Translations under genes and position numbers: made by a program | Assembly (NCBI GenBank): GCA_004362315.1 | Contig: SNWL01000005.1 | Location: 839,781 to 903,780, forward strand | Direction of reading: 5' to 3' | Length of the DNA stretch: 64,000 nt | Source of the DNA: Mycobacterium sp. BK086 | GTDB lineage: Bacteria > Actinomycetota > Actinomycetes > Mycobacteriales > Mycobacteriaceae | Shown: piece after piece, positions 5,317 to 40,331 of the stretch | How positions within the stretch are numbered: position 1 is the stretch's first letter | Layout of the letters: every line of letters starts with the position of its first letter | The notes under the pieces: generated by a model | The model's input: the letters and a program-made list of their open reading frames with translations, nothing else | What the model was told of the DNA's origin: nothing | The model's database searches: none

Positions 5317-5331
5317 CCCGGAAGCCTAACC

Positions 5332-5368: not shown

Positions 5369-5375
5369 CGCCAGC

Positions 5376-7458: not shown

Positions 7459-7483
7459 ATGAGGCCCGCGCGAGCGAACTGTA

Positions 7484-7502
7484 ATCCCGACGGTATCGGG
7501 AT
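7484..7502. terminator. Hairpin downstream of the Rieske/DapB-like operon
   Basis: The arms ATCCCGA and TCGGGAT pair perfectly (7 bp) around a 5-nt loop, 25 nt after the operon's stop codon. There is no T-tract, as is common for mycobacterial terminators, so it may only be an mRNA 3' stabiliser. Confidence 0.4.
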
Positions 7503-7691
7503 GGATTCGGTTAGATGAACAGAAGGTGAACACCCAGGTCAGTCCGTTCTTTCGGGCGTGATCGCAGTGCCGTCGGCGCCTCCGGTGGTCGCTCCGATAG
7601 CAACGATCGACACCGTGAACGGGGAACAAACGCCCGCCTCGCGGACGCCCGGAAGATAGCGAACGGAGTTCTACCAGCGGAATAGGCCAGG

Positions 7692-7697
7692 TAGAGT
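7692..7697 (+). promoter_or_regulatory. -10 box TAGAGT, leaderless start
   Basis: TAGAGT lies exactly 7 nt before the GTG at 7705, with a weak -35-like TTCTAC at 7669-7674 (17 bp spacing). This favours GTG 7705 over GTG 7696, which falls inside the -10 box. Confidence 0.5.
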
Positions 7698-7704
7698 GCC
7701 GTCC

Positions 7705-8373: not shown

Positions 8374-8860
8374 TCCCAAGCACTTCGGCGCTGTAGCGCT
8401 GCTGATGAGTGCTGCGTTGGCAGCCGCGCCGGTCGCGCACGCCGACGAAGCATTCTGGGGCGGGTGGTACAAGATCACCTTCCACACCGACCAGAAGTCG
8501 GGCACGTCCGTCGCGGCCACTCAGCAGGAAACGCCGTACACCGCCGCGTACAAGATCACCACGAACTGTTCGTCGGACATCTGCACCGCGTCGGTTCTCG
8601 ACGGGCCGACGCCCAAGGAGAACGCCACGCAGACAACCAGTTTCGTGTGGTCGGGTTCGCAATGGTCGCGGTCCAACAGCTGGCGGTGGGACTGCAACCT
8701 GCCGGACAGCACGATCACCTACGATCCAGCGCACTCGGTGACCACCTACAAGCCCCAGTCGGACGGCTCACTGGCCGGCACCTTCGAGACCACGATCGAG
8801 AGCGGCGCCTGCCAGGGCACGGTCGTCATCCCGGTGACAGCGGTCCCGTCTTCCTCCTGA
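8351..8860 (+). CDS. Secreted protein of unknown function
   Basis: A protein of about 169 residues with a typical Sec signal peptide (HFGAVALLMSAALAAAPVAHA, cleavage before DEAF). The mature part is rich in Thr, Ser and Trp and has four cysteines that could form disulfides (NCSSDIC, WDC, GAC). It resembles the many small exported beta-rich mycobacterial proteins of unknown function; no enzyme motif is seen. The GTG at 8351 is preferred because it sits directly before a clean signal sequence; a GTG at 8333 would add six residues. It overlaps the upstream VanY-like gene by 23 nt and ends 18 nt before the permease gene. Confidence 0.72.
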   Translation: MTKVILADPKHFGAVALLMSAALAAAPVAHADEAFWGGWYKITFHTDQKSGTSVAATQQETPYTAAYKITTNCSSDICTASVLDGPTPKENATQTTSFVWSGSQWSRSNSWRWDCNLPDSTITYDPAHSVTTYKPQSDGSLAGTFETTIESGACQGTVVIPVTAVPSSS

Positions 8861-8865
8861 CCCTC

Positions 8866-8871
8866 TAGGGT
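8866..8871 (+). promoter_or_regulatory. -10 box TAGGGT, leaderless start
   Basis: TAGGGT ends 7 nt before the ATG at 8879. A GTG at 8870 would start inside the -10 box, so ATG 8879 is preferred. No good -35 is visible. Confidence 0.45.
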
Positions 8872-8878
8872 GCGAAGG

Positions 8879-10294: not shown

Positions 10295-10332
10295 CACCGA
10301 AAATTCGGATGCCCCGGGTGTGCACGGCCAAC

Positions 10333-10338
10333 TACTGT
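10333..10338 (+). promoter_or_regulatory. -10 box TACTGT, leaderless start
   Basis: TACTGT ends 8 nt before the in-frame GTG at 10347. No Shine-Dalgarno is present. Confidence 0.4.
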
Positions 10339-10346
10339 CTGCCCGT

Positions 10347-10787
10347 GTGACACGGATAGCGGAAATCCCTGCGGGTCAAACGAAGTGCGCCGCAGCGGCG
10401 ATGCTTACGCTTCGACCACGCTGGCAGACGGTCGAGGCACTGGTCGCGTTCATCGACACCGAGCTTCGGCCCGCTGGCTATCGACTGGCGGGTGTCTTCG
10501 ATGATGACCCGGACACGGCTCCATCGGTGATCGGATTCCGTCGGGCGTGGTCGACTGCTTGGGGACACCACCTCTATGTCGACGACGTATCCACCCTCCC
10601 GGAAGCACGCGGTCGCGGACATGCCGATGCGCTGATGCGGTGGGTCACCGCGGAGGCTCAGCGGCTGGATTGTGAAGCGATCCATCTGGATTCCGGTGTC
10701 GGTGCCGATCGGGCCGCCGCCCATCGCCTGTATATGCGCAATCGCCTTCACATCACCGCGCATCATTTCGAGCGCTCACTGCGCTAG
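10347..10787 (+). CDS. GNAT family N-acetyltransferase
   Basis: A 146-residue acetyl-CoA-dependent transferase. The core GNAT signature is visible: a beta-strand LYVDDVSTLPEARGRGHADALM, in which ARGRGHA is the Q/R-x-x-G-x-G/A pyrophosphate-binding loop, then an acidic strand (CEAIHLDSGV) and the terminal helix with RLYMRN. The acceptor substrate is unknown. The reading frame is open further upstream, but the GTG at 10347 is the first start with a promoter-like box at the right distance and gives a normal-length GNAT domain. Confidence 0.82.
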   Translation: MTRIAEIPAGQTKCAAAAMLTLRPRWQTVEALVAFIDTELRPAGYRLAGVFDDDPDTAPSVIGFRRAWSTAWGHHLYVDDVSTLPEARGRGHADALMRWVTAEAQRLDCEAIHLDSGVGADRAAAHRLYMRNRLHITAHHFERSLR

Positions 10788-10821
10788 CGACTCGACAAAA
10801 AACTCACGCTCGACGATCAAT

Positions 10822-10827
10822 TACGCT
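10822..10827 (+). promoter_or_regulatory. -10 box TACGCT, leaderless start
   Basis: TACGCT ends 6 nt before ATG 10834. No Shine-Dalgarno is present between them. Confidence 0.45.
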
Positions 10828-10833
10828 CTCGAC

Positions 10834-11523
10834 ATGCAGAAGCTCACGCTGGCGACAGTGATCACGGCGATCGCGGTCGCAGGTGTTCCCGGTAGCGCCG
10901 GGGCCGCACCAAAGGATTACTGCGCCGACTTCAAGGGCGTCAACGACGGTCAGAACTGCCAGATCCAGCAGTCCGATCCGGCCTACCAAGTCAGCATCAG
11001 CTTCCCCAGCACCTACCCGGATTTGAAGTCGGTCGCCGACTACGTCGGCCAGACCAGAGACGGCTTCCTCAACGTCGCGAAGAGCTCCAACCCGCTCAAT
11101 GTGCCCTATGAGCTCGACATCACCGCGACCAGCTACAGCTCGGCGGTTCCGCCGCGCGCCACGCAATCCGTGGTGCTGCAGAACTACGAGAACATCGGCG
11201 GCGCTCATCCGACGACGTCGTTCAAGGCGTTCAACTGGGATCAGACCCAACGCAAGCCGATCAGCTACGACACGTTGTGGCAGCCGGGCTCCGACCCGCT
11301 GAAGGTGGTCTTTCCCATCGTCGTCGCCGAACTGCAGAAGCAGACCGGCCAGCCCGTCTTCGTCGACCCGACATTGGGCATGGACCCGGCGAGCTACCAG
11401 GATTTCGCGATCACCGACGACGGGGTGATCTTCTTCTTCAGCCAGGGCCAACTGCTTCCCGAGGCGGCCGGCGCCACCCAGGTGACGGTGCCGCGTTCCG
11501 CGATCGACCCGCTACTGGCCTGA
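10834..11523 (+). CDS. Secreted RsiV/DUF3298-like protein
   Basis: A 229-residue exported protein with a signal peptide (LATVITAIAVAGVPGSAGA, cleavage before APKD). The mature region matches the pattern of the RsiV/DUF3298 group: a first half with QVSISFPSTYPDL, then ENIGGAHPTTSFKAFNWD and YQDFAITDDGVIFFFSQGQLLPEAAG near the end. Several exported mycobacterial proteins have this fold; some bind sugars or lysozyme in other bacteria, but the role here is unknown. Two cysteines near the mature N-terminus (DYC, QNC) may pair. The gene overlaps the converging methyltransferase gene by 12 nt. Confidence 0.78.
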   Translation: MQKLTLATVITAIAVAGVPGSAGAAPKDYCADFKGVNDGQNCQIQQSDPAYQVSISFPSTYPDLKSVADYVGQTRDGFLNVAKSSNPLNVPYELDITATSYSSAVPPRATQSVVLQNYENIGGAHPTTSFKAFNWDQTQRKPISYDTLWQPGSDPLKVVFPIVVAELQKQTGQPVFVDPTLGMDPASYQDFAITDDGVIFFFSQGQLLPEAAGATQVTVPRSAIDPLLA

Positions 11524-12366
11524 GCCACCCGGCGGGGTCACACACGCGACCGCGCTCCACATCTTGTTGCCCGGGTTGCGGGGATTGGGCTGCGGCAAGA
11601 GCGCCGCGATCCGCAACAGCGGCGGCAGCCGACGAAACCGGCGGGCGGCCGTCAGCAGCGATTCCGCCTCGGCAACCGACCAGCCCAGGCCTTCGAAGAA
11701 AGCCAGCCCGTTGGCAGGCGCGAACTGGATCGGCGCGTTGCGCATCATGCCCTCGGTCTTGTCGTTCATCGTCGTCTTGATCCCGCCGGAGCCGAAGTCA
11801 AAAGTCCACCAAGCGATTTCAGGCCGCTGAAACGCCTCGGACAGACCGATGACGTCCGCCTCCGTCAGGTACATCAGCAGACCTTCGGTCAGCACGAAGG
11901 CTTTGGTGGCACCGGCCAACGCGTCGTCGAGGAACGCGTCCCGGGCAGCCGGGTCGGCGAGGTCGACGGCATGGCGGGACAACCGGCAGCGCGGGGTCTG
12001 GTCGGCCAGCAGCTGCTCTTTCTCGGCGACCAGCGGTGCCAGATCGGCCTCCACCCATTCCAGTTCGGGCGGGAGGTCGAGCCGGTAGGGACGGGTGTCC
12101 AGACCGGCGGCCAAGTTCAGCACCCGGTCGCACCCTTGACTGATCGCCTCGGCGATGAGGTCGTCGATGATCTTGGTGCGGGCGACCAGCCACCAGCCGT
12201 CACGGATGCTGCGGGGCGCGGCGGCGACGATCGCGTGGCCCTGCTGACCCGCGAGCCGTTCGGCCAACGGATCATGGAACAGGGCGTCGGGTCGCGCCGA
12301 TTCCTTGGCGCGGTGCGCGGTCACCCAGCGGGCGGTGTCGGAGACGTTCGAGACGAGCGAGTCCAT
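11512..12366 (-). CDS. SAM-dependent methyltransferase, PF04072/LCM type
   Basis: A 284-residue member of the large mycobacterial family of putative SAM methyltransferases related to leucine carboxyl methyltransferase. Visible features are VSDTARWVTAHRA at the N-terminus, the DPLAERL motif, the SAM loop VLNLAAGLDTRPYRL, WVEADLAPLVAEKE, and the post-loop strand FVLTEGLLMYLTEADV. Family members lack assigned substrates; roles in polyketide or lipid methylation are proposed. The ATG at 12366 gives the family length; the frame is open to 13131 but that extension has no family similarity. A small ORF with a good ribosome-binding site lies 26 nt upstream on the same strand. Confidence 0.88.
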   Translation of the reverse strand: MDSLVSNVSDTARWVTAHRAKESARPDALFHDPLAERLAGQQGHAIVAAAPRSIRDGWWLVARTKIIDDLIAEAISQGCDRVLNLAAGLDTRPYRLDLPPELEWVEADLAPLVAEKEQLLADQTPRCRLSRHAVDLADPAARDAFLDDALAGATKAFVLTEGLLMYLTEADVIGLSEAFQRPEIAWWTFDFGSGGIKTTMNDKTEGMMRNAPIQFAPANGLAFFEGLGWSVAEAESLLTAARRFRRLPPLLRIAALLPQPNPRNPGNKMWSAVACVTPPGGSGQ

Positions 12367-29229: not shown

Positions 29230-31548
29230 TCAGCCCGCTGCGACACCGGTCGGCGGTTCATCCACCTCCGGCGGGACCGGAACAACGATCGTGATGGCCG
29301 TGCTGCCACCATGCCCGTCCGAGGCCCAGATGGTGAAGCTGTCGTGCGTGACGGCGAAGGGGGCGCCGAGCGCGGCCGCGAGGTGACGTTGGTCGGCCGT
29401 CGGGTTGTAGGTGAACGTTCCATCGTCGTACACGTCGACCACGCCGCCGCCCACGCTCGCCCCACTCGTGCTGTAACTCAACGCGTCCAGGTCGGGATCA
29501 GTGACACCGGTGACGGAACCGGTCACCACTCCTACGATGTCGTCGATTTGTAGGCCCGTTATTGCACCACCAGCGGGGTTGCCGTTGACGGGGCTGACGG
29601 GCACGGTGATCGTCGCGGTGGCGACACCACCGTAGGCGTCGCTGGCGTTGACGGTGAAACTGTCGATCGTCGCGGCCTCGGGGGCGTTGATCGCGGCCGC
29701 CGCATGGCGGATCTGAGTGGAGGGCAGATACGTGAATGAACCGTCGGTGTTGATGGTGACAACTCCTCCGAGGGCGCTCGTCGCGGTCCCGGTGAAGGTC
29801 ACACTGTCCTGGTTGGGGTCGGCGGCTTGGATCTGGCCGCTTACCGATCCGTCCGCCTCGGATGTGCCACCGGTATAGCCGGAAATAGCCGGTGGCTTGT
29901 TGGTCGCGGCGATGTCGACGGTCACCACGGTTGTAACTGTGTCAGCTCCACTGAGACCGAATCGCCTTGCCAGGGAATGGATTACGGCTTGGAGCCGACC
30001 CAGCGGCCCGGGGAGACGATACTGCCCGCCATTGTCCACCACGACCGTGAAAGTGACCGTTCCGCCCAAGTGCCCGGTGTGCGAGTCCGGCGTGACCGTG
30101 AAGGTCCCGTCGGGGTTCACGTGCACGCGTGCGTTCTCGGGTTGGTTCACGGTGTACGTCAACCTGCCGCCCGAGCCGTGGAGGTCGCCGGTGACGACAC
30201 CGCTGAGAGGATCTTGGGACTGCTGAACCGGCGCGACAGCAGGAGTCTCGTTGAACAGCGTGTAGCCCACGACGCGGCGGACCCAGCTCAGCACCCGCCC
30301 AGGAGAAGGTGACGCTTGGCGCGCCGCGCCCCTCGGGTCGCTGAAAACCGCCGGACGGGGCGGATTCGCCCTGCGTGACTTCGCAGATGCCGTCGAGTGC
30401 TGGCCCGGCGCAGCGGGTCCGGTATTCGCACCCGCGGCGCTCTCGCTCTTGCCGGAGCGCGCCGTATCGGCGTGCGCCACCGACGATCCGGCGGCCAACG
30501 CCGCACCGATACCGAGCGTGATCGCGCCTACCCCAAGCCAGGCTGCGACAGTCCTGAATGCCGCGATCCCGAAAAGTGTTGATCCACATATCACCCACCA
30601 GATCAGGACGGTGATCGCGCTGCCGGCACCTGCACCGTCGAAGAACGCCGAAGACCGTAGCAGGCTTGCGGTTGCCCCTTGGGGTAGGTATTGGCCGAAT
30701 GCTCCCCAACCACTTGGCAACATCTCTGGCGCGCTGGCCAACCCGGACAGCGGGTTGCCCAGCAGCAATCCCAGTGCCGACCCCGCGATGAGCCCGATAC
30801 GCCCGAACAGGGAGCCAAGACCGAACGTGGTCAGACCGGCGGCACTGATGCCCAACAGAAGTCCCGAGGCAACACCCCAGAAGTTCGCGTCGATCGCACC
30901 CACGACGCCGAGTGCCAGCGTGACAAATACCGCCGCAATAACCGAAAACAGCAACAGTGCAGCCAGTTTCACCCAGCGATTGCGCGGCGGGAGAAGTATC
31001 AGCACTATCGCGGGCAGCAGCCCGGCGACCGTGATCGGTAGACCGGCCGCAACCAGCCCAGACCCGCGCGAGTCTTTCGCCGTCGGCGGCGCCAGGTCCT
31101 CCAGGTGCAGAGCCACGCCCATGCTTTTGGCCATGTCATTACCGACCTGCGTAAGCGACTGAGCCACAGCGGGACTGGCTCCACTTGCTATCAGGAGGAC
31201 GGGGCCGGTCGGGCCGAATGAAATCCCGCCGTACTGGTCGCGATTACGAATCGCGGCGTGAAGTGCGTCGACGTCTGCGTAAGTCGTCACCCGGAACACT
31301 CCAGGTGCCCTCTGCTGCAACACCGAAATCATTTGCCCACCAGCGGAACCCGCCACGCCGATGGGTACGTCGTGCGGCTTGCTGCGAGCCGCAGGAAGTG
31401 CGAACGCGATGGTGAGGATCCCGATCGCCAGCGCGAGGAGGACAGCGGCTCCGATCGCCCGCATCGCCATCACGCCGCCGCGTGCCGTGGGCGGTGCAGC
31501 TGCATGTCGAACGCCGTCGGCACTTTTTTCAACCGTCGGTGAAATCAT
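29230..31548 (-). CDS. ABC-2-type membrane protein fused to VCBS-like repeats
   Basis: A 772-residue single ORF. Residues about 27-50 form TM1, followed by an extracellular loop of about 115 residues (DVPIGVAGSAGGQMISVL, YGGISFGPTGPVLLIAS), then five TM helices to about residue 330, as in ABC-2/DUF3533-type permeases. Residues about 333-360 (GVGAITLGIGAALAAGSSVAHA then DTARSG) look like an Ala-x-Ala signal peptide. After a Pro/Ala/Ser linker, residues about 430-772 contain three VCBS/cadherin-like repeats of about 100 residues, each with a DGTFTY-x-P or DGSFTYLP strand. With seven TM segments and N-in topology the repeats would lie outside. It is divergent from a TetR gene. Confidence 0.78.
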   Translation of the reverse strand: MISPTVEKSADGVRHAAAPPTARGGVMAMRAIGAAVLLALAIGILTIAFALPAARSKPHDVPIGVAGSAGGQMISVLQQRAPGVFRVTTYADVDALHAAIRNRDQYGGISFGPTGPVLLIASGASPAVAQSLTQVGNDMAKSMGVALHLEDLAPPTAKDSRGSGLVAAGLPITVAGLLPAIVLILLPPRNRWVKLAALLLFSVIAAVFVTLALGVVGAIDANFWGVASGLLLGISAAGLTTFGLGSLFGRIGLIAGSALGLLLGNPLSGLASAPEMLPSGWGAFGQYLPQGATASLLRSSAFFDGAGAGSAITVLIWWVICGSTLFGIAAFRTVAAWLGVGAITLGIGAALAAGSSVAHADTARSGKSESAAGANTGPAAPGQHSTASAKSRRANPPRPAVFSDPRGAARQASPSPGRVLSWVRRVVGYTLFNETPAVAPVQQSQDPLSGVVTGDLHGSGGRLTYTVNQPENARVHVNPDGTFTVTPDSHTGHLGGTVTFTVVVDNGGQYRLPGPLGRLQAVIHSLARRFGLSGADTVTTVVTVDIAATNKPPAISGYTGGTSEADGSVSGQIQAADPNQDSVTFTGTATSALGGVVTINTDGSFTYLPSTQIRHAAAAINAPEAATIDSFTVNASDAYGGVATATITVPVSPVNGNPAGGAITGLQIDDIVGVVTGSVTGVTDPDLDALSYSTSGASVGGGVVDVYDDGTFTYNPTADQRHLAAALGAPFAVTHDSFTIWASDGHGGSTAITIVVPVPPEVDEPPTGVAAG

Positions 31549-31576
31549 TTCAGGAGCGTAAGCGACCGTGTCAAAT

Positions 31577-31596
31577 ATTTCAATGGTTGTTTAAAT
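31577..31596. promoter_or_regulatory. Candidate TetR operator
   Basis: The arms ATTTCAA (31577-31583) and TTTAAAT (31590-31596) match at 6 of 7 positions with a 6-bp spacer. They are centred in the 62-nt gap between the ABC-2/VCBS gene and the TetR gene, just upstream of the TetR -10 box. This is the expected position for autoregulation and control of the divergent gene. Confidence 0.45.
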
Positions 31597-31598
31597 GA

Positions 31599-31604
31599 TA
31601 TTCT
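31599..31604 (+). promoter_or_regulatory. -10 box TATTCT, leaderless start
   Basis: TATTCT ends 6 nt before ATG 31611. No Shine-Dalgarno precedes this ATG. Confidence 0.5.
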
Positions 31605-31610
31605 CGATAC

Positions 31611-32249
31611 ATGCCCTCACGTGCAGCGATGGACAAGAGACGGGGTCGACGCCTTGGTGAACCGGTCTCCCGGGATGTTGTGCTGCGCGCCGCCAAGCGC
31701 GAGTTCGCCAAGCACGGATACGACAAGACGACGCTGCGAGCGATCGCCGAAGAAGCGCGCGTAGACGCGTCGATGGTGCTGTATCTGTTCGGCTCAAAGG
31801 CCGAACTGTTCCGGGAATCGATGAAGCTGGTTCTCGACCCTCAACTCTTCACGGCCCAACTGGCGGCAGGTGCCGACGGCGAACTGGGATTTCGCATTGT
31901 GCGCGCCTACCTCACCATCTGGGAACAGCCCGATACCGCGGCCAGCATGGTGTCGATGCTGCAATCCGCGACGTCGAACAGCGATGCTCACCAGGCATTT
32001 CGGGAATTTCTGCAGAACTACGTCATGACCGCGGTGGCCGAAGCACTCGGCGGTGGCGACGACGCGCGATTACGTGCGATGCTTGCCGCGACCAACCTCG
32101 TTGGTACGGCGATGCTTCGATACGTCATGCAAGTGCCACCGTTGTCCACGTTGGACGTCGAACAGGTGGTCACCCTGATAGGGCCATCCGTCCAGCGATA
32201 TCTCAGCGCTCCGGCAGAGGACCTTGGACTAGACACGCCGTCGCACTGA
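31611..32249 (+). CDS. TetR family transcriptional regulator
   Basis: A 212-residue TetR regulator. The HTH spans about residues 20-65 (DVVLRAAKREFAKHGYDKTTLRAIAEEARVD then ASMVLYLFGSKAELF). The C-terminal domain (FRIVRAYLTIWEQPDTAASMVSML) resembles the TetR_C subgroup often found beside ABC-2/DrrB-like exporters. It is divergent from the ABC-2/VCBS fusion gene and probably represses it through the inverted repeat in the shared gap. An ATG at 31629 is a possible alternative start, but the promoter favours 31611. Confidence 0.87.
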   Translation: MPSRAAMDKRRGRRLGEPVSRDVVLRAAKREFAKHGYDKTTLRAIAEEARVDASMVLYLFGSKAELFRESMKLVLDPQLFTAQLAAGADGELGFRIVRAYLTIWEQPDTAASMVSMLQSATSNSDAHQAFREFLQNYVMTAVAEALGGGDDARLRAMLAATNLVGTAMLRYVMQVPPLSTLDVEQVVTLIGPSVQRYLSAPAEDLGLDTPSH

Positions 32250-32311
32250 GTTCTTCTCCCCCCCTTAGGTTTTGCCGAGCAATAATTCGAAACCCTTCTG
32301 CAAGTTGCCCC

Positions 32312-32340
32312 TTGCGCTCGATCTCGCGCGGCGTTACGGT
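32312..32340 (+). promoter_or_regulatory. Promoter of the O-methyltransferase gene (leaderless)
   Basis: TTGCGC (32312-32317) and TACGGT (32335-32340) are spaced 17 bp apart, and the GTG start lies 7 nt downstream. This gives a complete promoter with a leaderless start. Confidence 0.6.
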
Positions 32341-32347
32341 CCGTCAC

Positions 32348-33436
32348 GTGACGTCGACCAGAGTGCCACCGCCGAGGGTCTCCCGAGCGATCGAGCGGAC
32401 CCGGCATCATTTGTTCCGGCTCCACCAACGCGCCGCGCCGCCGGCAGCGGCGATGATGGAGCTGATCATGGGCGCGTGGATTGCCCAAACAATCTCTGCT
32501 GCAGCCGATTTAGGTATCGCCGATGTTCTTGCCGACGGTCCCGCTTCGGGCGAAGAACTAGCACGGCAGCTCAATGCGGATGCGGACGCGTTGCGGCGCA
32601 TGCTCCGGGCACTGATCGGGGTCGGCATCTTTCGGCAACGGCGTGACGGCCGTTTCGAGCTGACCCCGCTCGCGGACACGTTGCGTACCGACTCCCCCAT
32701 GTCGATGGCCGGCATGGCCCGATGGGTTGGCTCGCCGCAGCATCGTGAGCACTGGAGCCACCTGGGCGACGCGATACGATCCGGAACCGCGACGGTTCCC
32801 GGATTGCGAGGCAAACCGATATTCGAGTACCTCGCCGACGAGCCCGAACTCGCCGAAATTTTCAACGCTGCCATGACAGGTGTGTCCGACTTCGCGATCG
32901 CACCAGTGATCGCCGCCTATGATTTCAGCTGCTTCAGCACGATCGCCGACATCGGCGGCGGCCATGGCCGACTGCTCGCTGCAATCCTCGAATCAGCCTC
33001 GCAAACAAAGGGGGTGCTCTTCGATCTCCCACAGGTCGTGGCGAAAGCGCCAGCGCTGCTTCGAAAACATCAGGTCGAAAGGCGCGTTCAGATCGTGGGC
33101 GGGTCGTTCTTCGATTCCGCACCGGCCGGCGCTGACGCTTATGTGCTCAAGCACGTGATCCACGATTGGCCCGATGAGGACGCTGTACGGATTCTTCGGA
33201 CAGTGCGCGCCGCGGCCCACCCAGGCGCCCGAATCCTGTTGGTCGAGTTCGTGATACCCGAACATGCCAGAAATTTTCACGGCAAATGGGTTGACCTTGA
33301 GATGCTCGTCGTCGCTGATGCTCGCGAGCGCACCGCTTCCGAATACAGCAGATTGCTCAGTCAGGCCGCCTTCAGGCTCGATCGAATTGTGAGCACGGTC
33401 GGGCCGATCAGCATCATCGAGGGCACCGCGCTCTAG
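32348..33436 (+). CDS. O-methyltransferase, hydroxyneurosporene/COMT-like
   Basis: A 362-residue SAM-dependent O-methyltransferase of the plant-COMT-like type found in polyketide and phenol methylation. The N-terminal dimerisation domain (MMELIMGAWIAQTISAAADLG) contains a winged helix (SGEELARQLNADADALRRML). The SAM loop is IADIGGGHGRLLAAIL. The catalytic region KHVIHDWPDEDAVRIL contains the general-base His (HDWPDE), and a RERTASEYSRLLSQAAF tail follows. Substrates in mycobacteria may be halogenated phenols or secondary metabolites; this is not decidable here. The GTG 32348 start follows the promoter. The stop codon overlaps the stop of the converging DapB-like gene in a shared CTAG. Confidence 0.88.
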   Translation: MTSTRVPPPRVSRAIERTRHHLFRLHQRAAPPAAAMMELIMGAWIAQTISAAADLGIADVLADGPASGEELARQLNADADALRRMLRALIGVGIFRQRRDGRFELTPLADTLRTDSPMSMAGMARWVGSPQHREHWSHLGDAIRSGTATVPGLRGKPIFEYLADEPELAEIFNAAMTGVSDFAIAPVIAAYDFSCFSTIADIGGGHGRLLAAILESASQTKGVLFDLPQVVAKAPALLRKHQVERRVQIVGGSFFDSAPAGADAYVLKHVIHDWPDEDAVRILRTVRAAAHPGARILLVEFVIPEHARNFHGKWVDLEMLVVADARERTASEYSRLLSQAAFRLDRIVSTVGPISIIEGTAL

Positions 33437-34515
33437 CTGTGCCGCGTCAGGCCGGGAAGGGGCAGCACGCCCAGATCGAGGTGCGTCTTGAGACCAGGCG
33501 GGGCAGCACACACTGCGGGAATCACGTTGACCGCGGACATCGCGGTCCAGGCGTAGCCGGGATGCGCGATGTCGCCGTTCTCGTCGGGCTCGCCTTGCAG
33601 GGTGATCTCGGTCGACGGATCCCCCTTGATGACAACGCGATATTTGTTGGTACCCCAGACCCATCGCGGTTCGATCACGTCATCGCCCATCGTATAGAGC
33701 GCGTGAAACTGCACCAGCGGCCTGCCGCCACATAGAGCCGTCCACGTGTGATGCTGCGCGGCAACGGTTCCCGCAGAAATTACCCCGCGAAGGTCCGGAA
33801 CGTCGCTGTCGGGCGTTCCGGCGTAGACGATGTCGGCCGTGGCGACCGCGACCTCGACCTCGGAGGTCATGTCGTCGATGGACTCCCCCAGCGCCTGCGC
33901 GACCATCGTCATGGACTGCGCGAAGTACGGCAGCGACGATCCCAGAAGGCTGGGCTGCGAAGCGAATACGTCTGGGTCGAGGCCGAAGCCCATGAGCTGG
34001 ATGTATTTGGAGGGATAGTCGCTGAAGTTGACGACCTCGGACACCTGCACCTGATCGACGCGACTGACCAGCCGGGCCGCGATCAAGGCAAGCAAGTCCC
34101 CGGCGAAGCCCGGATGAATTCCGCCCGCATGGTATGACACGCCGCCGTCGATGCAGGCCCGCCCGATCCGCTCCGCATCGGCGGCGGTGATATCGGTCGG
34201 GTAGTACACCCCCGCGGTGGTGACGACGTTCTTGCCCGATCGCAGCAGCCGGCATACCACATCCGTGTCGGGCCAGATCGGCGTGTAGAACACGCAATCC
34301 GCTTCCGTCGCAACAATCGCCTCGATGTCGTCGGTCGCCAGCACGCCCGCGGGTTCACAGCCGGCGATGTCACCGGCGTCCCTGCCCACTTTGTCGGCGT
34401 CGTAGACCAGCACGCCGACCAGTTCGTAGGCCGGGCTGTGCACGAAGTGCCGCAGCGCCGCCTTACCCACGCTCCCGGTGGCCCACTGAATCACCCGGTA
34501 CGGTCGCTCGCCCAC
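33433..34515 (-). CDS. DapB-like NAD(P)H-dependent dehydrogenase, operon-terminal
   Basis: A 360-residue paralogue of the 6373-7458 protein. Shared features are the Rossmann start RVIQWATGSVGKAALRHF, the VGRDAGDIAG motif, NVVTTAGVYYP and IHPGFAGD, with the same length. It is the last gene of a five-gene operon (36889 to 33433) with orphan cytochrome-oxidase subunits III and IV and two 6-TM proteins. The gap to the CoxIV-like gene is 9 nt. A cytosolic redox step feeding or depending on the membrane proteins is a reasonable hypothesis; the substrate is unknown. Confidence 0.82.
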   Translation of the reverse strand: MGERPYRVIQWATGSVGKAALRHFVHSPAYELVGVLVYDADKVGRDAGDIAGCEPAGVLATDDIEAIVATEADCVFYTPIWPDTDVVCRLLRSGKNVVTTAGVYYPTDITAADAERIGRACIDGGVSYHAGGIHPGFAGDLLALIAARLVSRVDQVQVSEVVNFSDYPSKYIQLMGFGLDPDVFASQPSLLGSSLPYFAQSMTMVAQALGESIDDMTSEVEVAVATADIVYAGTPDSDVPDLRGVISAGTVAAQHHTWTALCGGRPLVQFHALYTMGDDVIEPRWVWGTNKYRVVIKGDPSTEITLQGEPDENGDIAHPGYAWTAMSAVNVIPAVCAAPPGLKTHLDLGVLPLPGLTRHS

Positions 34516-34524
34516 GCATCTCTC

Positions 34525-34803
34525 CTATAGATAGACAAAGTAGAACCCCAGCAAGAGCGCGAAAAGGCCGACCAGCCAACTGATCGTGGTGACCTTCAGC
34601 CACACCGGGGCTCGGCGCACTTCCATGAAGTGCCAGATGACCAGTTGCGTCTTCGCCGCGGCGATCAGCAGCACGACGACCGTCACCGTCGGGTTGAGCA
34701 CATGCGCGGCGCCACCGTCGCGTGCGGTCAGCCAGGACACAGCGGTGACCAGCGTCAGTACCGCCCACACGATGATCAGCGGATTACGCAGGTAGGACGT
34801 CAC
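34525..34803 (-). CDS. Cytochrome c oxidase subunit IV family protein
   Basis: A 92-residue membrane protein with three TM segments (PLIIVWAVLTLVTAVSWL, NPTVTVVVLLIAAAKTQLVIW, and the C-terminal ISWLVGLFALLLGFYFVYL). The AAAKTQLVIWHFMEVRRAPVWL motif is the hallmark of prokaryotic cytochrome oxidase subunit IV (CoxD/CyoD/NorF-like). It starts with GTG, 3 nt after the CoxIII-like gene's stop. No subunit I or II gene is in the window, so it is an orphan accessory subunit. Confidence 0.85.
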   Translation of the reverse strand: MTSYLRNPLIIVWAVLTLVTAVSWLTARDGGAAHVLNPTVTVVVLLIAAAKTQLVIWHFMEVRRAPVWLKVTTISWLVGLFALLLGFYFVYL

Positions 34804-34806
34804 AGT

Positions 34807-35406
34807 TCACCTCATCAGGTAGAGCAGCGCGAACAGGACAAGCCACAGAACGTCGACCATGTGCCAGTAGGTCGCACCCGTCTCCACGAACGAAATCCTG
34901 GGCGCCGCGGGACCCCGCAGGTTCCGGATGACGAAGCCGAGGATCACCACGCCCAGCAGAACGTGACACAGATGCATGCCCGTCATCACGAAGTAGTACA
35001 TGAAGAACAGGCTGGTTCCCGGCGTCAATCCCGCCATGATCTCGGGAACGTATTCGAACACCTTGAACACCGGGAAGGCGATGCCGAAGCCCAGCGCTAT
35101 GCCGAAGAACCGCACCGCATCCGGGACCCTGCCCGTCCGGGCCGCCGATGTCCCGAGCGCCACAAAGAGCGAACTGGTGAGCAGGACGACGGTGTTGATC
35201 GCGCCGATGTCGAGGTTCAGCCGCGCCTGGCCCTGCAGGAACAGGTCATGGTCTTGCCCGCGGTAGTACATGTAGGCGACGAAGTAGACGCCGAAGATGA
35301 GCAGGTCGCCGATGACGAAGAACCACATACTGGGCTCGCCGGGAATGTGATTGCGCACCTTGTTGTCTGGCTGCGGGGTGTTGACACTATCCGCGACGTC
35401 GGTCAC
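34807..35406 (-). CDS. Heme-copper oxidase subunit III family protein (NorE/CtaE-like)
   Basis: A 199-residue, five-TM subunit III-like protein. Typical motifs are PGEPSMWFFVIGDLLIFGVYFVAYMYYR near the N-terminus, NTVVLLTSSLFVALG, and the TGMHLCHVLLGVVIL/YWHMVDVLWLVLFALLYL end. It is short, like NorE or CyoC rather than full CtaE. Subunit III has no redox centres, so it needs a catalytic partner encoded elsewhere or has a different role. It overlaps the preceding membrane-protein gene by GTGA. Confidence 0.87.
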   Translation of the reverse strand: MTDVADSVNTPQPDNKVRNHIPGEPSMWFFVIGDLLIFGVYFVAYMYYRGQDHDLFLQGQARLNLDIGAINTVVLLTSSLFVALGTSAARTGRVPDAVRFFGIALGFGIAFPVFKVFEYVPEIMAGLTPGTSLFFMYYFVMTGMHLCHVLLGVVILGFVIRNLRGPAAPRISFVETGATYWHMVDVLWLVLFALLYLMR

Positions 35407-36179
35407 GCGGTCGCCTTCAGCCGGGGGTCGGTCGTCGCCGAATCGGCGTCGGGCCAGGCGTTCTCGAGTTCCTCGTCAGGCTGCTTCTTGATGGATCGGT
35501 AGATGCAGACGTAGACGATGATCTGCCACGACACATAGAGCACCATCGCGAACCAGAAGGTCATCAGACCGTTCCACGCGAAGGGGCCCGATTTGGCGAT
35601 CCACACCGGTGCCGCGATGAGTTCGGTGACGTACTGCCAGATGGTGTAGTAGCCAAGCCATTTCGGCAGGATATTGTTCTGGTCGAGCAGGATCGCCAGC
35701 CCGAACGACATCCACATGACGCAGAAACAACCCAGCGAGCCGATATAGGCCAGGTAGCCGAAGTCGTAGAGCATCTCCAGCGTTGACGCCGAGTATCCGG
35801 ATCGGAACGCGCCGAGGCCGAAGCAGAACATCGGGAACAGCATGCCGACGATCGCGCCGGTCATGGAGCCGACCATGATCGAGTAGCGGAAGACCGGACT
35901 GACCGACATCCGTTTGACCTGAATCAGATAGACGGCGTTCGAGACCGGCGCCAAGCCGAACGACAGCGTCAAGATGGCGCAGGCGATCAGCAGATTGTGC
36001 GACTGCATGAAGTCGACGATCTGTGACGTGGAGGCACTCGGTGACCGCGGCGGCATCATCCAGCTCAGCGGGACGAAGACGATGCCGAAGAGGTTGAAGA
36101 AGAACGGGACGCTCCAAAAGGCAATCCACTGATCGAGTTTCCGGTTCTTGCGCGGCGCGGTCGCGATGCCGTCGCTCAC
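35403..36179 (-). CDS. Six-TM membrane protein, paralogue of the upstream gene
   Basis: A 258-residue integral membrane protein. Six or seven hydrophobic segments are visible (IAFWSVPFFFNLFGIVFVPLSW, NLLIACAILTLSFGLAPVSNAVYLI, SIMVGSMTGAIVGMLFPMFCFGLGAF, LAYIGSLGCFCVMWMSFGLAILL, YYTIWQYVTELIAAPVWI, MTFWFAMVLYVSWQIIVYVCIY). It shares with the 36176-36889 protein the pattern G-x-x-AFR, a conserved LD before P(K/R)W, and KSGP-x-AWNG. The GTG at 36179 overlaps the upstream stop (GTGA); the longer frame to 36299 would run into that gene. Family and function are not recognised. Confidence 0.8.
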   Translation of the reverse strand: MSDGIATAPRKNRKLDQWIAFWSVPFFFNLFGIVFVPLSWMMPPRSPSASTSQIVDFMQSHNLLIACAILTLSFGLAPVSNAVYLIQVKRMSVSPVFRYSIMVGSMTGAIVGMLFPMFCFGLGAFRSGYSASTLEMLYDFGYLAYIGSLGCFCVMWMSFGLAILLDQNNILPKWLGYYTIWQYVTELIAAPVWIAKSGPFAWNGLMTFWFAMVLYVSWQIIVYVCIYRSIKKQPDEELENAWPDADSATTDPRLKATA

Positions 36180-36889
36180 GCGAGAACCTCCCGTTCGGCC
36201 CCCTGCTTGTTGACGATTCGAAGCAGAACCACGAACGTCACCGCGATGAACGTGGCGAGCACGACGAGCCGCAGGGTGTAGGACACGGCCCCGTTCCACG
36301 CCAGCGGGCCGGACTTGTACAGAACCGAGAACGCGCTGGGCGCCAGCAGCACGGCGATCACGATGCTGAAATGCGCCATCCAGCGCGGGAAGATCGGATC
36401 GGGGCGGGCGTCGAGATAGATGCTCACCGCAAGACAGAGGTTCTGCACGATGATGGTGCCGACCGGCGCGATGAAGAAGAACCAGGCCATATCGTTCAGG
36501 AGGCTGATGAGCTCGGGATTGCGGTCGGGCCGGAAGGCAGCCACCCCCCAGCAGTAGTCGGCGAGGATGAATGCCGTGGTGCCGATGCCGACGCAGATGA
36601 TGTAGGCGTAGGTGAAGACGCTGCTCGAGGTGGCGATGCGGGAGATCTGTACGGCGGTGACGGCGAACAGCGGAACCAGCGATCCGGCGATCAGGTTGCA
36701 GAGGATCACGACGCCCAGGATGCCGGTGTTGTTGTCCCGGAAGAACGTTGCGACCTCATCGGGGGTGAGCGTCGGCGACAGGGGCGGAGAGAAGATCGGG
36801 AACAGCAGATACGCGAGCACCAGCAGTGCCGCCGCAGGTGGGGTCGTCCAGAGCAGTATTCGTTGGCCTCGGGTGTTCATCGACACCAT
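36176..36889 (-). CDS. Six-TM membrane protein, first gene of the CoxIII/IV operon
   Basis: A 237-residue protein with six TM segments (LLWTTPPAAALLVLAYLLFP, GILGVVILCNLIAGSLVPLF, FTYAYIICVGIGTTAFILADY, AWFFFIAPVGTIIVQNLCLAV, HFSIVIAVLLAPSAFSVLY, SYTLRLVVLATFIAVTFVVLL). It is clearly related to the next gene through GVAAFR, the LD-x-PRW region and YKSGPLAWNG. No heme- or copper-ligand pattern of a catalytic oxidase subunit is seen. The ATG at 36889 or the one at 36880 is the start. The start lies 13 bp from a long palindrome, and the divergent TetR gene faces it. Confidence 0.8.
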   Translation of the reverse strand: MVSMNTRGQRILLWTTPPAAALLVLAYLLFPIFSPPLSPTLTPDEVATFFRDNNTGILGVVILCNLIAGSLVPLFAVTAVQISRIATSSSVFTYAYIICVGIGTTAFILADYCWGVAAFRPDRNPELISLLNDMAWFFFIAPVGTIIVQNLCLAVSIYLDARPDPIFPRWMAHFSIVIAVLLAPSAFSVLYKSGPLAWNGAVSYTLRLVVLATFIAVTFVVLLRIVNKQGAEREVLA

Positions 36890-36902
36890 CCAGGTCTAAC
36901 AC

Positions 36903-36926
36903 TTTCACTGTCAGATGACAATGAAA
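36903..36926. promoter_or_regulatory. Palindromic operator O1 for the CoxIII/IV operon
   Basis: The arms TTTCACTGTCA (36903-36913) and TGACAATGAAA (36916-36926) match at 10 of 11 positions around a 2-bp centre. It lies 13 bp upstream of the operon's first ATG, where a repressor would block the promoter. Confidence 0.65.
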
Positions 36927-36966
36927 TCGGCATAAAGCCAGGAAATCACTCAGGTGGAACTGGAAT

Positions 36967-36988
36967 TTCACTGACATCCTTCAGTGAA
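36967..36988. promoter_or_regulatory. Palindromic operator O2 next to the TetR gene
   Basis: The arms TTCACTGA (36967-36974) and TCAGTGAA (36981-36988) are a perfect 8-bp inverted repeat with a 6-bp spacer. It is 26 bp upstream of the TetR GTG. It shares the TTCACTG half-site with O1, so one regulator probably binds both. Confidence 0.65.
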
Positions 36989-37014
36989 GGCCAGAATTGC
37001 GGCACAATGGTCGT

Positions 37015-37635
37015 GTGCAAGAGAGCCCAACAGGCCGCGAAGCCCAACGACGCAGAACGCGTGCCCGCGTGCTCGGTGCCGCCATCGAGGAGTTCCAGCG
37101 CGCCGGTACCAGCTCTGCCGACATCAATGCGATTGTGGAGGCGGCGGGTGTCTCGCGCAGCACGTTCTACTTCCACTTCCCGACCAAGGAGCACGTGCTT
37201 CTCGAGCTGATTCGCGGCGACGAGGATCGTCTGGCCGAGGAGCTCAGCCGATTCCTCGACGCACCGCATGATTTCGCCGAGGTACTGCCCGAGATCGTGC
37301 GACTCGTGCTGGCGCTCGAAGAGCAATGGGGCATAGCACTTTTCCGCGACACCACCAGCCTTTACTTCTCGCCGACGCTGCCGCAAGAGGAAAACTGGCT
37401 ACAGCACCCGACTTTCGTGCTGCTGGCTGCCGAGATCGAGCGGGCGCGCCATCGCGGCGAACTCTACGACGATGTCGACGCCTACCACAGTGCGGCCTTC
37501 TTTCTCGTCGGTCTGTATGCGTTGCTGACCACGAACCGGGAATCGAATGCCGAACGCCACGAGGTCTTGCGGAAGTTCGTGAAAAGCAGCCTGCGCAGTA
37601 TGCAGCCGATGCCGATGCCCGCTAAACAACACTGA
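37015..37635 (+). CDS. TetR family regulator of the CoxIII/IV operon
   Basis: A 206-residue TetR protein. The HTH lies at about residues 15-62 (RVLGAAIEEFQRAGTSSADINAIVEAAGVS then RSTFYFHFPTKEHVLLE). It is divergent from the operon at 36889-33433, with two palindromes sharing TTCACTG half-sites in the gap, so autoregulation and control of the operon are likely. The GTG at 37015 is the first plausible start; a CACAAT box 6 nt upstream suggests a leaderless message. The stop codon is inside a strong terminator hairpin. Confidence 0.87.
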   Translation: MQESPTGREAQRRRTRARVLGAAIEEFQRAGTSSADINAIVEAAGVSRSTFYFHFPTKEHVLLELIRGDEDRLAEELSRFLDAPHDFAEVLPEIVRLVLALEEQWGIALFRDTTSLYFSPTLPQEENWLQHPTFVLLAAEIERARHRGELYDDVDAYHSAAFFLVGLYALLTTNRESNAERHEVLRKFVKSSLRSMQPMPMPAKQH

Positions 37636-37673
37636 GGCCCCCTCCCGTCTGCATTCGGGAGACGGCCTCAGTG
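37630..37673. terminator. Bidirectional terminator between convergent genes
   Basis: The outer arms CACTGAGGCC (37630-37639) and GGCCTCAGTG (37664-37673) pair perfectly, with inner CTCCCG/CGGGAG arms extending the stem. The TetR stop codon TGA is within the 5' arm. The stem also lies beyond the stop of the small secreted-protein gene on the minus strand, so it can serve both. Confidence 0.75.
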
Positions 37674-37682
37674 AGGCTTGTG

Positions 37683-37916
37683 TTATCGCTCGTCGAAGGC
37701 GGGCGAGGTGTTCTGGAGCTTGCCCCACTTCTTGCCGCCGTGATTCGCAATCGCGGGCGGTGCGTAGACCTTCGGGGTGGCGATGAAACTGGAACGCACG
37801 CGCTGATCACCCGATGCCATGCTGTCCGCACTGGCCATGCCGGCCAGTCCGAGGGCGGCGCCACCGAGGATGCCTGCCGAGATGAAGGGCAGTGCAAGGC
37901 GGGCGGTGATGTTCAC
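37683..37916 (-). CDS. Small secreted protein, unknown
   Basis: A 77-residue exported protein. The signal peptide (ARLALPFISAGILGGAALGLAGMASA) is cleaved before DSMAS. The mature 47 residues (RVRSSFIATPKVYAPPAIANHGGKKWGKL) are basic with no Cys. The GTG at 37916 has AGGAG 6 nt upstream, which sets the start; the frame is open to 38144 without a sensible N-terminus. Similar short 'HGGKKWG'-type proteins occur in mycobacteria, with no known role. Confidence 0.72.
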   Translation of the reverse strand: MNITARLALPFISAGILGGAALGLAGMASADSMASGDQRVRSSFIATPKVYAPPAIANHGGKKWGKLQNTSPAFDER

Positions 37917-38076
37917 GTCAATCTCCTGTTTCACAGTGTTCTTGGTGTCTGGCGCCGTTGTGGCGATGCCATAAGACTGCCTGCCAGCAGGGGGGTTGTC
38001 TGTCCGCCGGCCGGAGGGGGACGCGGCTGAATCGGATGTCCCCCGATCGGTGGACACGTGACGCCTATCCCTCACG

Positions 38077-39006
38077 TCAGTTCTGCGCTGACCGGGGAAT
38101 GAGCGATTTGCGGGGGCGCAACAGCAGCACCGCGACTCCTGCAATCACAATGCCAACCAGATTCACCAGAAGCTGAAGGGCGGAGCGTCCCGCGACCGAC
38201 CAGTCCCCCAATACCGCTGCAACAACGGCGAATCCGGCGGCGGGCACCGTCGTCACCGAGATAAAAACACCGACCAGCACACCCGATTTTGATGAGATCA
38301 GTGAGAGCATCCCAGCCGCACCGGCCAGCAGGGCGACGATGAACGACGCGGGCCCGACCCGGTAGATGAAGTCGACCTGATGGACGTTGGTGACGTCCTC
38401 GATGCTGATCCAGCCGATCGCCGCCGCTCCCATCGTGACGAACGCGGTGACCGCCATCGCGAAGGGAAGTCCGACGAGCAGAGCCAGCGCGGCCCGGCGG
38501 GCAAGCTGCGCACGCCGCTGAACCAGTGCCACCGATAGCGCGGCCAGGGGCCCGAACTCGGGACCGACCACCATGGCGCCGACAATGGTGACCGATGAAT
38601 CGGTGGCAACACCGATGGCAGCGAGCAGACACGCCAGCGTCATGAACATGACAAACGTCATCGTCAGCGTCGCGTCTTCGCGAGTCCGGGCGATCAACTC
38701 GTCCCAGACCAGGGCATCAGCCCCCTCGCCCTCGGCCTCCTCCTCGGCGCGGTGCGCTGTCGTCGACAGGACCGTTTCGAGATTGTGCAGGGTTATCGCA
38801 CCCTCATGTTGGACGTCGAGTTCCTTGAGCTTGCGGATCACGCCGTTGACGGATTCACGGGCCACGTCGGCGGTGATTTCGTCGCCCTCGGGCACGAGTG
38901 CGGCGCCCGGGAACAGCAGCAGATTGCCCACGCCCGGCTCCGCGCGCAGTACATCGAGGACCTGTTCGCGCAGACGCTTCGGTGCGATCACCCGCAAGTG
39001 CAGCAT
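38077..39006 (-). CDS. DUF389 family membrane protein
   Basis: A 309-residue protein. Residues 1-85 are a cytosolic ferredoxin-like domain (MLHLRVIAPKRLREQVLDVLRAEPGVGNLLLFPGAAL). Residues about 115-305 hold the DUF389 membrane domain with five or six TM helices and the signature SSVTIVGAMVVGPEFGPLAALSVALV. DUF389 proteins are uncharacterised; the GAM(V/L)(V/I)xPxxGP motif suggests a channel or transporter. It is followed by a 160-nt gap and the small secreted gene. No operon partner is seen. Confidence 0.86.
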   Translation of the reverse strand: MLHLRVIAPKRLREQVLDVLRAEPGVGNLLLFPGAALVPEGDEITADVARESVNGVIRKLKELDVQHEGAITLHNLETVLSTTAHRAEEEAEGEGADALVWDELIARTREDATLTMTFVMFMTLACLLAAIGVATDSSVTIVGAMVVGPEFGPLAALSVALVQRRAQLARRAALALLVGLPFAMAVTAFVTMGAAAIGWISIEDVTNVHQVDFIYRVGPASFIVALLAGAAGMLSLISSKSGVLVGVFISVTTVPAAGFAVVAAVLGDWSVAGRSALQLLVNLVGIVIAGVAVLLLRPRKSLIPRSAQN

Positions 39007-39104
39007 GCAGTCGAATTATGCTCAAAGCGTCTCTGCCGCACTGACAAACTCGCCGATATCAGCGGCTGAGAAAACTTGTCGTACCTCGCTGTCATGATGT
39101 CGTT

Positions 39105-40331
39105 ATGTCCTCGACCACAGCGCAGCCGGTGAAGCGTATTGAGGTGTTGTTCGAGGAGTTGTCGGAGTTGGCTGGTCAGCGTAATGCGATTGATGGGCGC
39201 ATTGTGGAGATCGTGGCCGAGATCGATCACGACGGGATCTGGGGCAATACCGGGGCGCGGTCGGTGTCGGCGTTGGTGGCCTGGAAGCTGGGTACGTCGT
39301 CGACGAATGCCGACACCATTGCCACGATCGCGCACCGGCTCGATGAATTCCCGCGCTGCACAGAAGGGATGCGGCAGGGTCGGCTCTCGGCTGATCAGGT
39401 CGGTGTCATCGCCGCCCGTGCCGCCGACGGTTCTGATGAGCACTATGCGGAGCTGGCGTCGGTCGCCACGGTCAGCCAGCTGCGTAAAGCGGTGAAGTTG
39501 GAGCCGCGTCCTGGCCCCGATCGCCGGCCCGAACCGAAACGCAGGATCACCAAAACCTCGGGTGAGGACACGACGACCTGGACCATCACCCTGCCCCACG
39601 TCGAAGCGGCGCCCTTCGACGCCGCGTTGCAATCCCATCACGACGCACTGGTCGCGGAGTGGAAACGCGAGCACGGCGCCGACTCCTCGGAGGTCGCGCC
39701 ACCCATGCCGAATACCACCGATGCGTTCATGAGCTTGGTCGAGGCCGGCTGGGATGCCGACGTCGCGCGCCGTCCGCACGGGCAGCGCACCACCGTCGTC
39801 GTGCACGTCGATGTCGAAAAGCGCACCGGGGAACTGCATCTGGGTCCGCTGCTCACCGACGCCGATCGCCAATACTTGACCTGTGATGCCACCTGCGAGG
39901 TCTGGTTCCAACGCGACGGTCAACCCCTCGGTGCCGGCCGCAGCACCCGCACCGTCAATCGGCGGCTGCGTCGCGCGCTGGAACACCGCGACGCCACCTG
40001 CGCGGTCCCCGGGTGTAGCGCCACCCGCGGACTGCATGCCCACCACATTCAGCACTGGGAAGACGGCGGCCCCACCAACCTCACCAATCTTGTCCTGCTG
40101 TGCCCCTATCACCACCGGGCCCATCACCGCGGCGACATCACCATCACCGGACCCGCCGAGCACCTCACGGTCACCGACTGCGATGGCGACCCACTCACGC
40201 CAGGATCGCTAGCCCGCCCGCCCAACCACTCCCCGCCCGACGTCCCGCCGTGTCCCGGCCCGATCGGCGAACGCGCGCAATGGAAGTGGTATCACCCCTT
40301 CGAACCACAACCACCGCCGTCAACCAACTAG
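39105..40331 (+). CDS. 13E12-repeat family protein with HNH nuclease domain
   Basis: A 408-residue member of the REP13E12/DUF222 family that is multicopy in mycobacteria. The DUF222 part covers residues about 10-260 (AQPVKRIEVLFEELSELAGQRNAIDGRI, then GARSVSALVAWKLG). The C-terminal HNH domain (about 295-345) has CAVPGC, LHAHHIQHWEDGGPTN and LVLLCPYHHRAHHRG: the zinc Cys pair and the H-N-H core are intact. In M. tuberculosis some 13E12 copies are integration sites for prophage-like elements; this copy has no flanking phage genes. The function is unknown; nuclease activity is likely from the intact motif. Confidence 0.9.
   Translation: MSSTTAQPVKRIEVLFEELSELAGQRNAIDGRIVEIVAEIDHDGIWGNTGARSVSALVAWKLGTSSTNADTIATIAHRLDEFPRCTEGMRQGRLSADQVGVIAARAADGSDEHYAELASVATVSQLRKAVKLEPRPGPDRRPEPKRRITKTSGEDTTTWTITLPHVEAAPFDAALQSHHDALVAEWKREHGADSSEVAPPMPNTTDAFMSLVEAGWDADVARRPHGQRTTVVVHVDVEKRTGELHLGPLLTDADRQYLTCDATCEVWFQRDGQPLGAGRSTRTVNRRLRRALEHRDATCAVPGCSATRGLHAHHIQHWEDGGPTNLTNLVLLCPYHHRAHHRGDITITGPAEHLTVTDCDGDPLTPGSLARPPNHSPPDVPPCPGPIGERAQWKWYHPFEPQPPPSTN

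Follow-up and report, generated by a model that had tools for sequence, protein, structure and literature searches.

Subunits of the CoxIII type bind lipids and pack against subunit I of heme-copper oxidases, and they do so without cofactors of their own. Related proteins are encoded as NorE and NorF in the norCBQDEF clusters of denitrifiers, and the role of these two proteins is an open question. Here, we analyzed a stretch of 64,000 nucleotides (nt) from Mycobacterium sp. BK086 (assembly GCA_004362315.1, contig SNWL01000005.1, positions 839,781 to 903,780 of the forward strand; hereafter the window), in which a NorE-like and a NorF-like gene stand directly behind two genes for paralogous membrane proteins with six predicted transmembrane segments (6-TM proteins). 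The core of this locus is a four-gene membrane-protein module of the order 6TMa-6TMb-NorE-like-NorF-like (A, B, C and D), which occurs in varied surroundings, usually beside a TetR gene. No description of the A-B-C-D unit was found in the open-access literature, searched by listings, nor in Pfam or NCBIfam, in agreement with an initial annotation of the window that had called the system undescribed.

The module and a fifth gene, E, lie on the minus strand between 36889 and 33433. Gene A (36176-36889, 237 amino acids (aa)) probably starts in fact at its second ATG, at 36880, where many relatives begin with MN.R.Q. It is followed by its paralogue B (35403-36179, 258 aa, GTG start), by C (34807-35406, 199 aa), which passes the cut-off of COX3 (PF00510, 1.9e-11; 44.8 bits vs 23.8), and by D (34525-34803, 92 aa), which passes that of COX4_pro (PF03626, 5.7e-11; 43.1 bits vs 28.9). 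Gene E (33433-34515, 360 aa) encodes a DapB-like dehydrogenase with a DAP_DH_C domain (PF19328, 6.8e-14). The genes overlap by 4 nt at A/B and B/C, and gaps of 3 nt and 9 nt separate C from D and D from E. Gene calls were made with our own script and not with a standard gene finder, and starts and short genes are error-prone. The recomputed open reading frames returned the five genes and the spacings that the initial annotation had described, and its subunit identities were confirmed by the COX3, COX4_pro and DAP_DH_C matches and by the relationship of A and B, which find each other in phmmer (9e-22 and 2e-21) and have the motif KSGP-x-AWNG in common.

The first four genes are conserved in their order. 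Close C-type genes (E <= 4.7e-24) were held by 21 of 41 genomes (that of BK086 and 40 relatives), and a 6-TM gene lay at most 1.2 kb from each of these 42 genes, in a search that started from C. An internal stop interrupts one of the 42, and the rows left out (E >= 2.2e-17) were mostly CtaE-like sequences of 26-33% identity and fragments. Ten close C genes belong to a single genome (G018). Over all fetched loci we counted 116 distinct C genes, 69 of them in the order a-b-C-D and two more in the order a-b-C with D not seen; since these genes came mostly from loci found via the 6-TM protein (best 80 of 381 kept), the proportion of 69 in 116 is biased upward. Another 27 C genes directly follow a lone 6-TM gene in the same orientation, and the remaining 18, nor clusters included, are arranged otherwise. 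Pairwise distances of A, B, C and D correlate with r of 0.92-0.97 over 58 non-redundant modules, as expected for a unit inherited together.

The order a-b-C-D is also found in Pseudomonadota (L118, L148). Shorter sets with a single 6-TM gene are present on plasmids of Diaphorobacter, Novosphingobium, Sphingobium, Azoarcus (in the order C-D-6TM), Pseudonocardia, Mycobacterium branderi and Rhodococcus, as well as on contigs of Verrucomicrobiaceae, Myxococcota and Cellvibrionales. Sphingobium herbicidovorans has the C-D pair and the 6-TM gene on opposite strands, at a distance of three genes. The distribution is patchy: the 6-TM family was detected at E <= 1e-10 in 8 of 119 genomes from an even draw of the phylum.

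As judged from its sequence, C resembles NorE more than it does the CtaE of the same cell. The PDB matches of C were oxidase subunit III chains (best 2.8e-15), and D gave one chance match there and nothing else. The group consensuses of C share K..E(Y/W), TG.H..HV.G and WH.VD with NorE, and the lysine of the first motif is kept in C and NorE, whereas it is a glutamine in the cell's own CtaE. TG.H..HV and YWH.VD, which we take to be hallmarks of CoxIII, are kept in C. A C match was present in 77 plasmid records, of which 60 were listed and nine chosen and opened: five contained norB, three had a 6-TM gene close by (L181-L183), and the Thiothrix stretch showed neither. The five with norB (Azospirillum, Ruegeria (two), Labrenzia, Ensifer) carry the C homologue inside nor clusters with NorQ-type or NorD-type genes, and a D homologue follows in all five, annotated as 'nitric oxide reductase F protein' in Labrenzia. 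On the Thiothrix fructosivorans plasmid (L178), genes for norE-like, norF-like, hemerythrin, norQ and norD products stand in a row at 3980-7775, with no norB or 6-TM gene in the 8.5 kb shown. In a tree of C (76 of 119 rows), a group of 44 rows (support 91/84, not starred) includes 42 of the 45 from two-6TM modules. Of the six nor rows sampled, five form a separate group (99/80), and Thiothrix L178, the sixth, is placed with a 6-TM module. The branch of CtaE is very long in this tree, where the deep forks stay open and neither the root nor the order of descent is settled.

The subunit III and IV homologues of the window have no oxidase around them. The genome of BK086 (6.93 Mb, 11 contigs) contains seven C-type matches: besides that of the window, five show 41-49% identity to C and one, at C3:205390, shows 28% and is presumably the real CtaE. 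The sole PF00115 (COX1) match is on contig C1, whereas the window is on contig C3, and the sole PF00116 (COX2) match, at C3:198924, is about 675 kb from the operon. With one COX1 and one COX2, neither of them near, six subunit III homologues are left without a catalytic partner of their own. The COX1 search, like that for norB, covered this genome, and the term orphan applies to it alone. The locus therefore differs from a complete heme-copper oxidase in that neither subunit I nor subunit II (PF00116) is encoded with the accessory subunits, and an ordinary oxidase operon was ruled out for the same reason.

These data bear on the proposal that the module deals with nitric oxide (NO) or oxygen, with NorEF and the 6-TM pair supporting the single aa3-type oxidase or removing NO. 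The homologues of C and D in nor clusters speak for it, as do NorQ/NorD-type genes in the vicinity of 6-TM or C genes at a few loci (L025, L122, L194, L200). However, the only PF00115 match carries WFFGHPEVY, presumably a typical CtaD motif, so that no NorB was found in the genome of BK086. Moreover, this genome has six orphan C genes and G018 ten close ones, many of them in catabolic-looking islands. We thus regard a function in NO or oxygen metabolism as unlikely.

Within the module, the 6-TM proteins are the constant neighbours of C and D. At E 0.01, neither A nor B matched a family of Pfam or NCBIfam. Averaged over 70 aligned members, the hydropathy shows six hydrophobic stretches; W170, G194 and G200 are invariant, and P35, P36, P39, R120, D133, D160, P168, P195, A197 and W198 are conserved in at least 90% of the members. 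Twelve of the 14 well-conserved polar positions are outside the predicted transmembrane cores, which are short, so that 'outside' covers helix ends too. There is no conserved histidine in these 70 members, the best histidine column reaching 43%. With Pfam at E values up to 1, DUF4386 was found in four of the 70 members, weakly (best 2e-4), and EBP (EXPERA) in one (2e-6; this member was not traced); 66 and 69 members, respectively, thus have no match to these families, and the A protein of the window matches no family there. NCBIfam gave three matches, each in a single member, and the 6-TM profile gave zero matches in PDB up to E = 5. The lack of a convincing match in Pfam, NCBIfam or PDB, together with that of a conserved histidine, argues that the 6-TM family is not a heme or copper subunit, and A and B were ruled out as a diverged subunit I or another heme protein on the histidine criterion. 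Kinship with AveC-like proteins, 'M250' membrane proteins and CoxIII was likewise rejected (hhalign probability <1% each). The same value was obtained for NnrU (a single sequence) and for the 231/236-aa proteins near a NorDQ locus of BK086 (two sequences), which were weak tests. The members in the annotated plasmid records that we opened are labelled 'hypothetical protein'.

In the 6-TM tree (83 of 270 rows, made with a quick method and no bootstrap), A and B each form one group (Shimodaira-Hasegawa approximate likelihood ratio test (SH-aLRT) 86 and 96), and the two groups lie together (92). Starred branches force the single-6TM label to change at least six times, which implies that the partnership of 6-TM proteins with C-D has been made or lost repeatedly. 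The genome of BK086 holds 31 places with a 6-TM match, both with A and with B as query, and 26 of the 31 are in two regions (C4:236-289 kb and C1:1152-1207 kb).

Gene E does not belong to this core. It follows D on the same strand in two of the 69 A-B-C-D modules, those of the window and of Mycolicibacterium vinylchloridicum (L093), with one of the 69 ending at the locus edge. In Mycolicibacterium rhodesiae JS60 (L092), where A is 96% identical, a different gene comes after D. Also, E is one of 17 matches in its own genome, and the enrichment of E near C is not significant (7 of 13, P = 0.13). On these three grounds E was ruled out as a core part; it is a lineage-specific add-on, probably co-transcribed here. 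The protein resembles DAP_DH_C and amine dehydrogenase chains (nearest solved chain 4e-21), and its counterparts are native amine dehydrogenases and 2,4-diaminopentanoate dehydrogenase. Its Ord score of 105.9 bits is short of the cut-off of 400, and it fails the DapB equivalog TIGR00036 (24.7 bits vs 122). A second DapB-like gene of the window, at 6373-7458 on the plus strand, is 32% identical to E.

The initial annotation had read the five genes as one inducible membrane system with a redox or protective role; in a redox reading, E would feed electrons to the A-D complex. Gene E indeed begins 9 nt behind D, with an AGGAG stretch before its GTG, and E-type genes are found near related sets: convergent after D in two further modules (L075, L077), behind a single-6TM-C-D set in Hydrocarboniphaga (L155) and in front of A in L122. 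Nevertheless, the weak linkage of E with D, its many matches in the genome and the lack of a conserved histidine in A and B speak against a redox role, which is the least probable of the readings considered here. The proposed gene order therefore held for the first four genes and not for a five-gene unit. Other parts of that annotation fared better: the accessory subunits are indeed without a catalytic subunit nearby, the absence of a heme or copper ligand pattern extends to the 6-TM family, a TetR gene is the usual neighbour, and we found neither a co-transcribed oxidase next to these genes nor a known catalytic family for A or B.

The gene upstream of A matched TetR_N in 51 of the 69 modules and was divergent in 51 of the 69. 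In the window it is a TetR-family regulator at 36997-37635 on the plus strand (TetR_N 1.5e-12), with a TTG start that is uncertain. Two palindromes, putative operators, accompany it. The first, at 36903-36926, is 13 nt from the annotated start of A. The second, at 36966-36989, is imperfect and 7 nt from the TetR start; it has perfect 8-nt arms and three mismatches to the pattern drawn from the first. This pattern has two matches in the 64 kb of the window against 0.00 expected (none in 100 shuffles), and with up to three mismatches only these two sites match in the whole genome. As the pattern was drawn from 36903-36926, only 36966-36989 and the other genomes provide independent support. Among four genomes, three contained four sites of this type, all upstream of a module, with one each in G021 and G004.

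Other modules have different palindromes. One with the core GCCGATCGGC is upstream of A in 22 of 75 loci (for example L077, L084, L086, L091, L109, L125 and L135), as a tandem double in several of them, and one with TAGCCGATCGGCTA in 15 of 75. The 14-mer TAGCCGATCGGCTA has 11 sites in 8 of 12 module-bearing genomes, each no more than about 170 nt in front of an A match. We infer that the TetR protein uses the palindromes as its operators. The same four genes thus seem to be controlled by regulators that differ between modules and that, as far as these patterns tell, control nothing else, although degenerate sites elsewhere could be missed. Since the palindromes, as exact or near-exact matches in the genomes searched, are only in front of modules, A-D can be argued to work without a co-regulated enzyme, and the unit looks self-contained.

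Taken together, we tentatively favour, as a possible rather than a probable reading, an inducible cofactor-free membrane complex for the handling of a hydrophobic organic compound, in which C and D would serve for packing or lipid binding. The 6-TM proteins would be the working core, as an A-B heterodimer here and as a single 6-TM protein in the shorter version, and would bind this compound within the membrane or move it there. By analogy with CoxIII and CoxIV on subunit I, C and D would pack on this core and offer a structural and lipid-binding surface, with no part in redox chemistry; such a complex is suggested by the behaviour of CoxIII-type subunits and by the anatomy of the unit. TetR would release the operon when the compound, or a derivative, is present, and E would be a local addition. 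The 31 6-TM matches in one genome fit ligand-specific proteins. We lean to transport or sequestration of the compound, be it export, import or presentation, because no enzyme under joint control emerges from the operator patterns.

Several observations weigh against this reading. No transporter family or motif was found in the 6-TM proteins, and the expansion of the family beside catabolic genes fits a membrane enzyme equally well as a transporter. The contact of the 6-TM proteins with C and D is deduced from anatomy and analogy, and the correlated distances of A-D include shared species history. As for regulation, the pairing of TetR with the palindromes is assumed. The upstream gene is without TetR_N in 18 of the 69 modules, and the fourth genome, G024, holds the module with no palindrome of the type seen in the window. 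Also, TAGCCGATCGGCTA is absent from 4 of the 12 module-bearing genomes, that of BK086 included, and a scan for any palindrome, made with no shuffle control, found none upstream of A in 29 of 75 loci.

The surroundings of the wider 6-TM family fit the favoured reading and also bear on its strongest rival. We sampled proteins of at least 100 aa within two genes of 60 stand-alone 6-TM genes (135, cut randomly to 130) and compared them with a control of 130 proteins, of which two very long ones were removed and 128 scanned; this control came mostly from other loci, contains orthologues and is rough. TetR_N was found in 21 of 130 neighbours vs 5 of 128 controls, and Acyl-CoA_dh_1 in 11 of 130 vs 8 of 128. 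Amino_oxidase (17 of 130), AveC_like (8 of 130) and the NorQ-like CbbQ_C (4 of 130) were not among the 25 control families listed. Six plasmid records were opened for their 6-TM match: in four of them Rieske, acyl-CoA or short-chain dehydrogenase/reductase (SDR) catabolic genes surround it, and in the two others the setting is less clear. From these neighbours, we infer that the 6-TM family serves the catabolism of hydrophobic compounds.

Alternatively, the 6-TM proteins could be membrane enzymes that need no cofactor (isomerases, cyclases or lyases of terpenoid- or lipid-like substrates) and that C-D stabilize. This would suit the stand-alone 6-TM genes that adjoin FAD (flavin adenine dinucleotide) oxidoreductases, AveC-like (PF17198, named spirocyclase), RPE65-type and acyl-CoA enzymes, as well as the conserved R, D and W residues, mostly in loops, and the EBP match. 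However, that match concerns a single member, A and B themselves have no family match, hhalign shows no kinship to AveC-like proteins or to the four other membrane sets compared, and the palindrome patterns reveal no pathway enzymes under joint control with A-B-C-D. We consider an enzymatic core somewhat unlikely.

Many of the 6-TM matches of BK086 (31 in all; islands at C4:215-300 kb and C1:1130-1220 kb) and of G018 (39 in all; islands on its contig C4) are in islands with AveC-like, FAD amine-oxidase-type, RPE65-type, P450-like and ecdysteroid-kinase-like genes. Such islands perhaps serve the catabolism of complex terpenoid- or steroid-like compounds. We also observed that AveC-like genes adjoin genes for NorD-/NorQ-type (VWA, MoxR) chaperones, at about 268-272 kb of contig C4 of BK086 (L189) and in L153, L154, L164 and L194, mostly with a 6-TM gene near. 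In L159, the 6-TM gene sits between the AveC-like gene and norD. It may be that a metal-insertion chaperone has AveC-like proteins as its clients. Another locus of BK086 (L191, contig C1:2029000-2045000) contains, at 7214-11812, a TetR like that of the window by eye, two similar membrane proteins of 231/236 aa and a NorD-NorQ pair.

In a further reading, the module could help another membrane metalloenzyme to mature or assemble, much as NorQD does for NO reductase, and NorD-NorQ pairs beside AveC-like and 6-TM genes (at about 270 kb of contig C4 of BK086 and in L153, L154, L159, L164, L194 and L200) would be in line with this. Yet the module of the window has neither NorQ nor NorD, only one of six loci with them (L122) has A-B-C-D, and the palindrome patterns name no client gene, which makes such a maturation role very doubtful.

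Other features around the operon are few. Rfam gave zero matches across 31000-40000 of the window, and a scan for sigma-70-type promoters found 0 vs 0.9 expected. A terminator-like hairpin at 37664-37678, directly behind the TetR gene, is the sole one in 33300-37800, a count that is not above chance.

More generally, it is quite possible, if still short of an even expectation, that the NorE/NorF-type subunits described here belong to a separate class of cofactor-free membrane complexes built around an unnamed 6-TM family. If this is true, 'oxidase' accessory subunits would be general membrane-complex modules for which respiration is only one job. A protein that carries the label 'cytochrome c oxidase subunit 3' is not necessarily respiratory. 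Our data also outline an unnamed membrane family with 31 matches in one genome, and the unit, which bears on the question of NorE and NorF, is a conserved and apparently self-regulated setting without NO reductase and with a defined partner family, hence a place to study such subunits.

Compared with described systems, C and D belong to the same Pfam families as CtaE/CyoC and CtaF/CyoD, the likeness of D to CtaF being at family level. The module differs from these in having no subunit I or II near, and C scores 85.5 bits in aa3_CtaE_Actin against a cut-off of 190. A close counterpart is norEF of the norCBQDEF clusters, which has the same C-D gene order, the same motifs and a similar length; the best plasmid NorE match opened, that of Azospirillum, is 42% identical over 82% of C. 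Unlike norEF, the module described here comes without norC or norB, and its constant neighbour is the 6-TM family.

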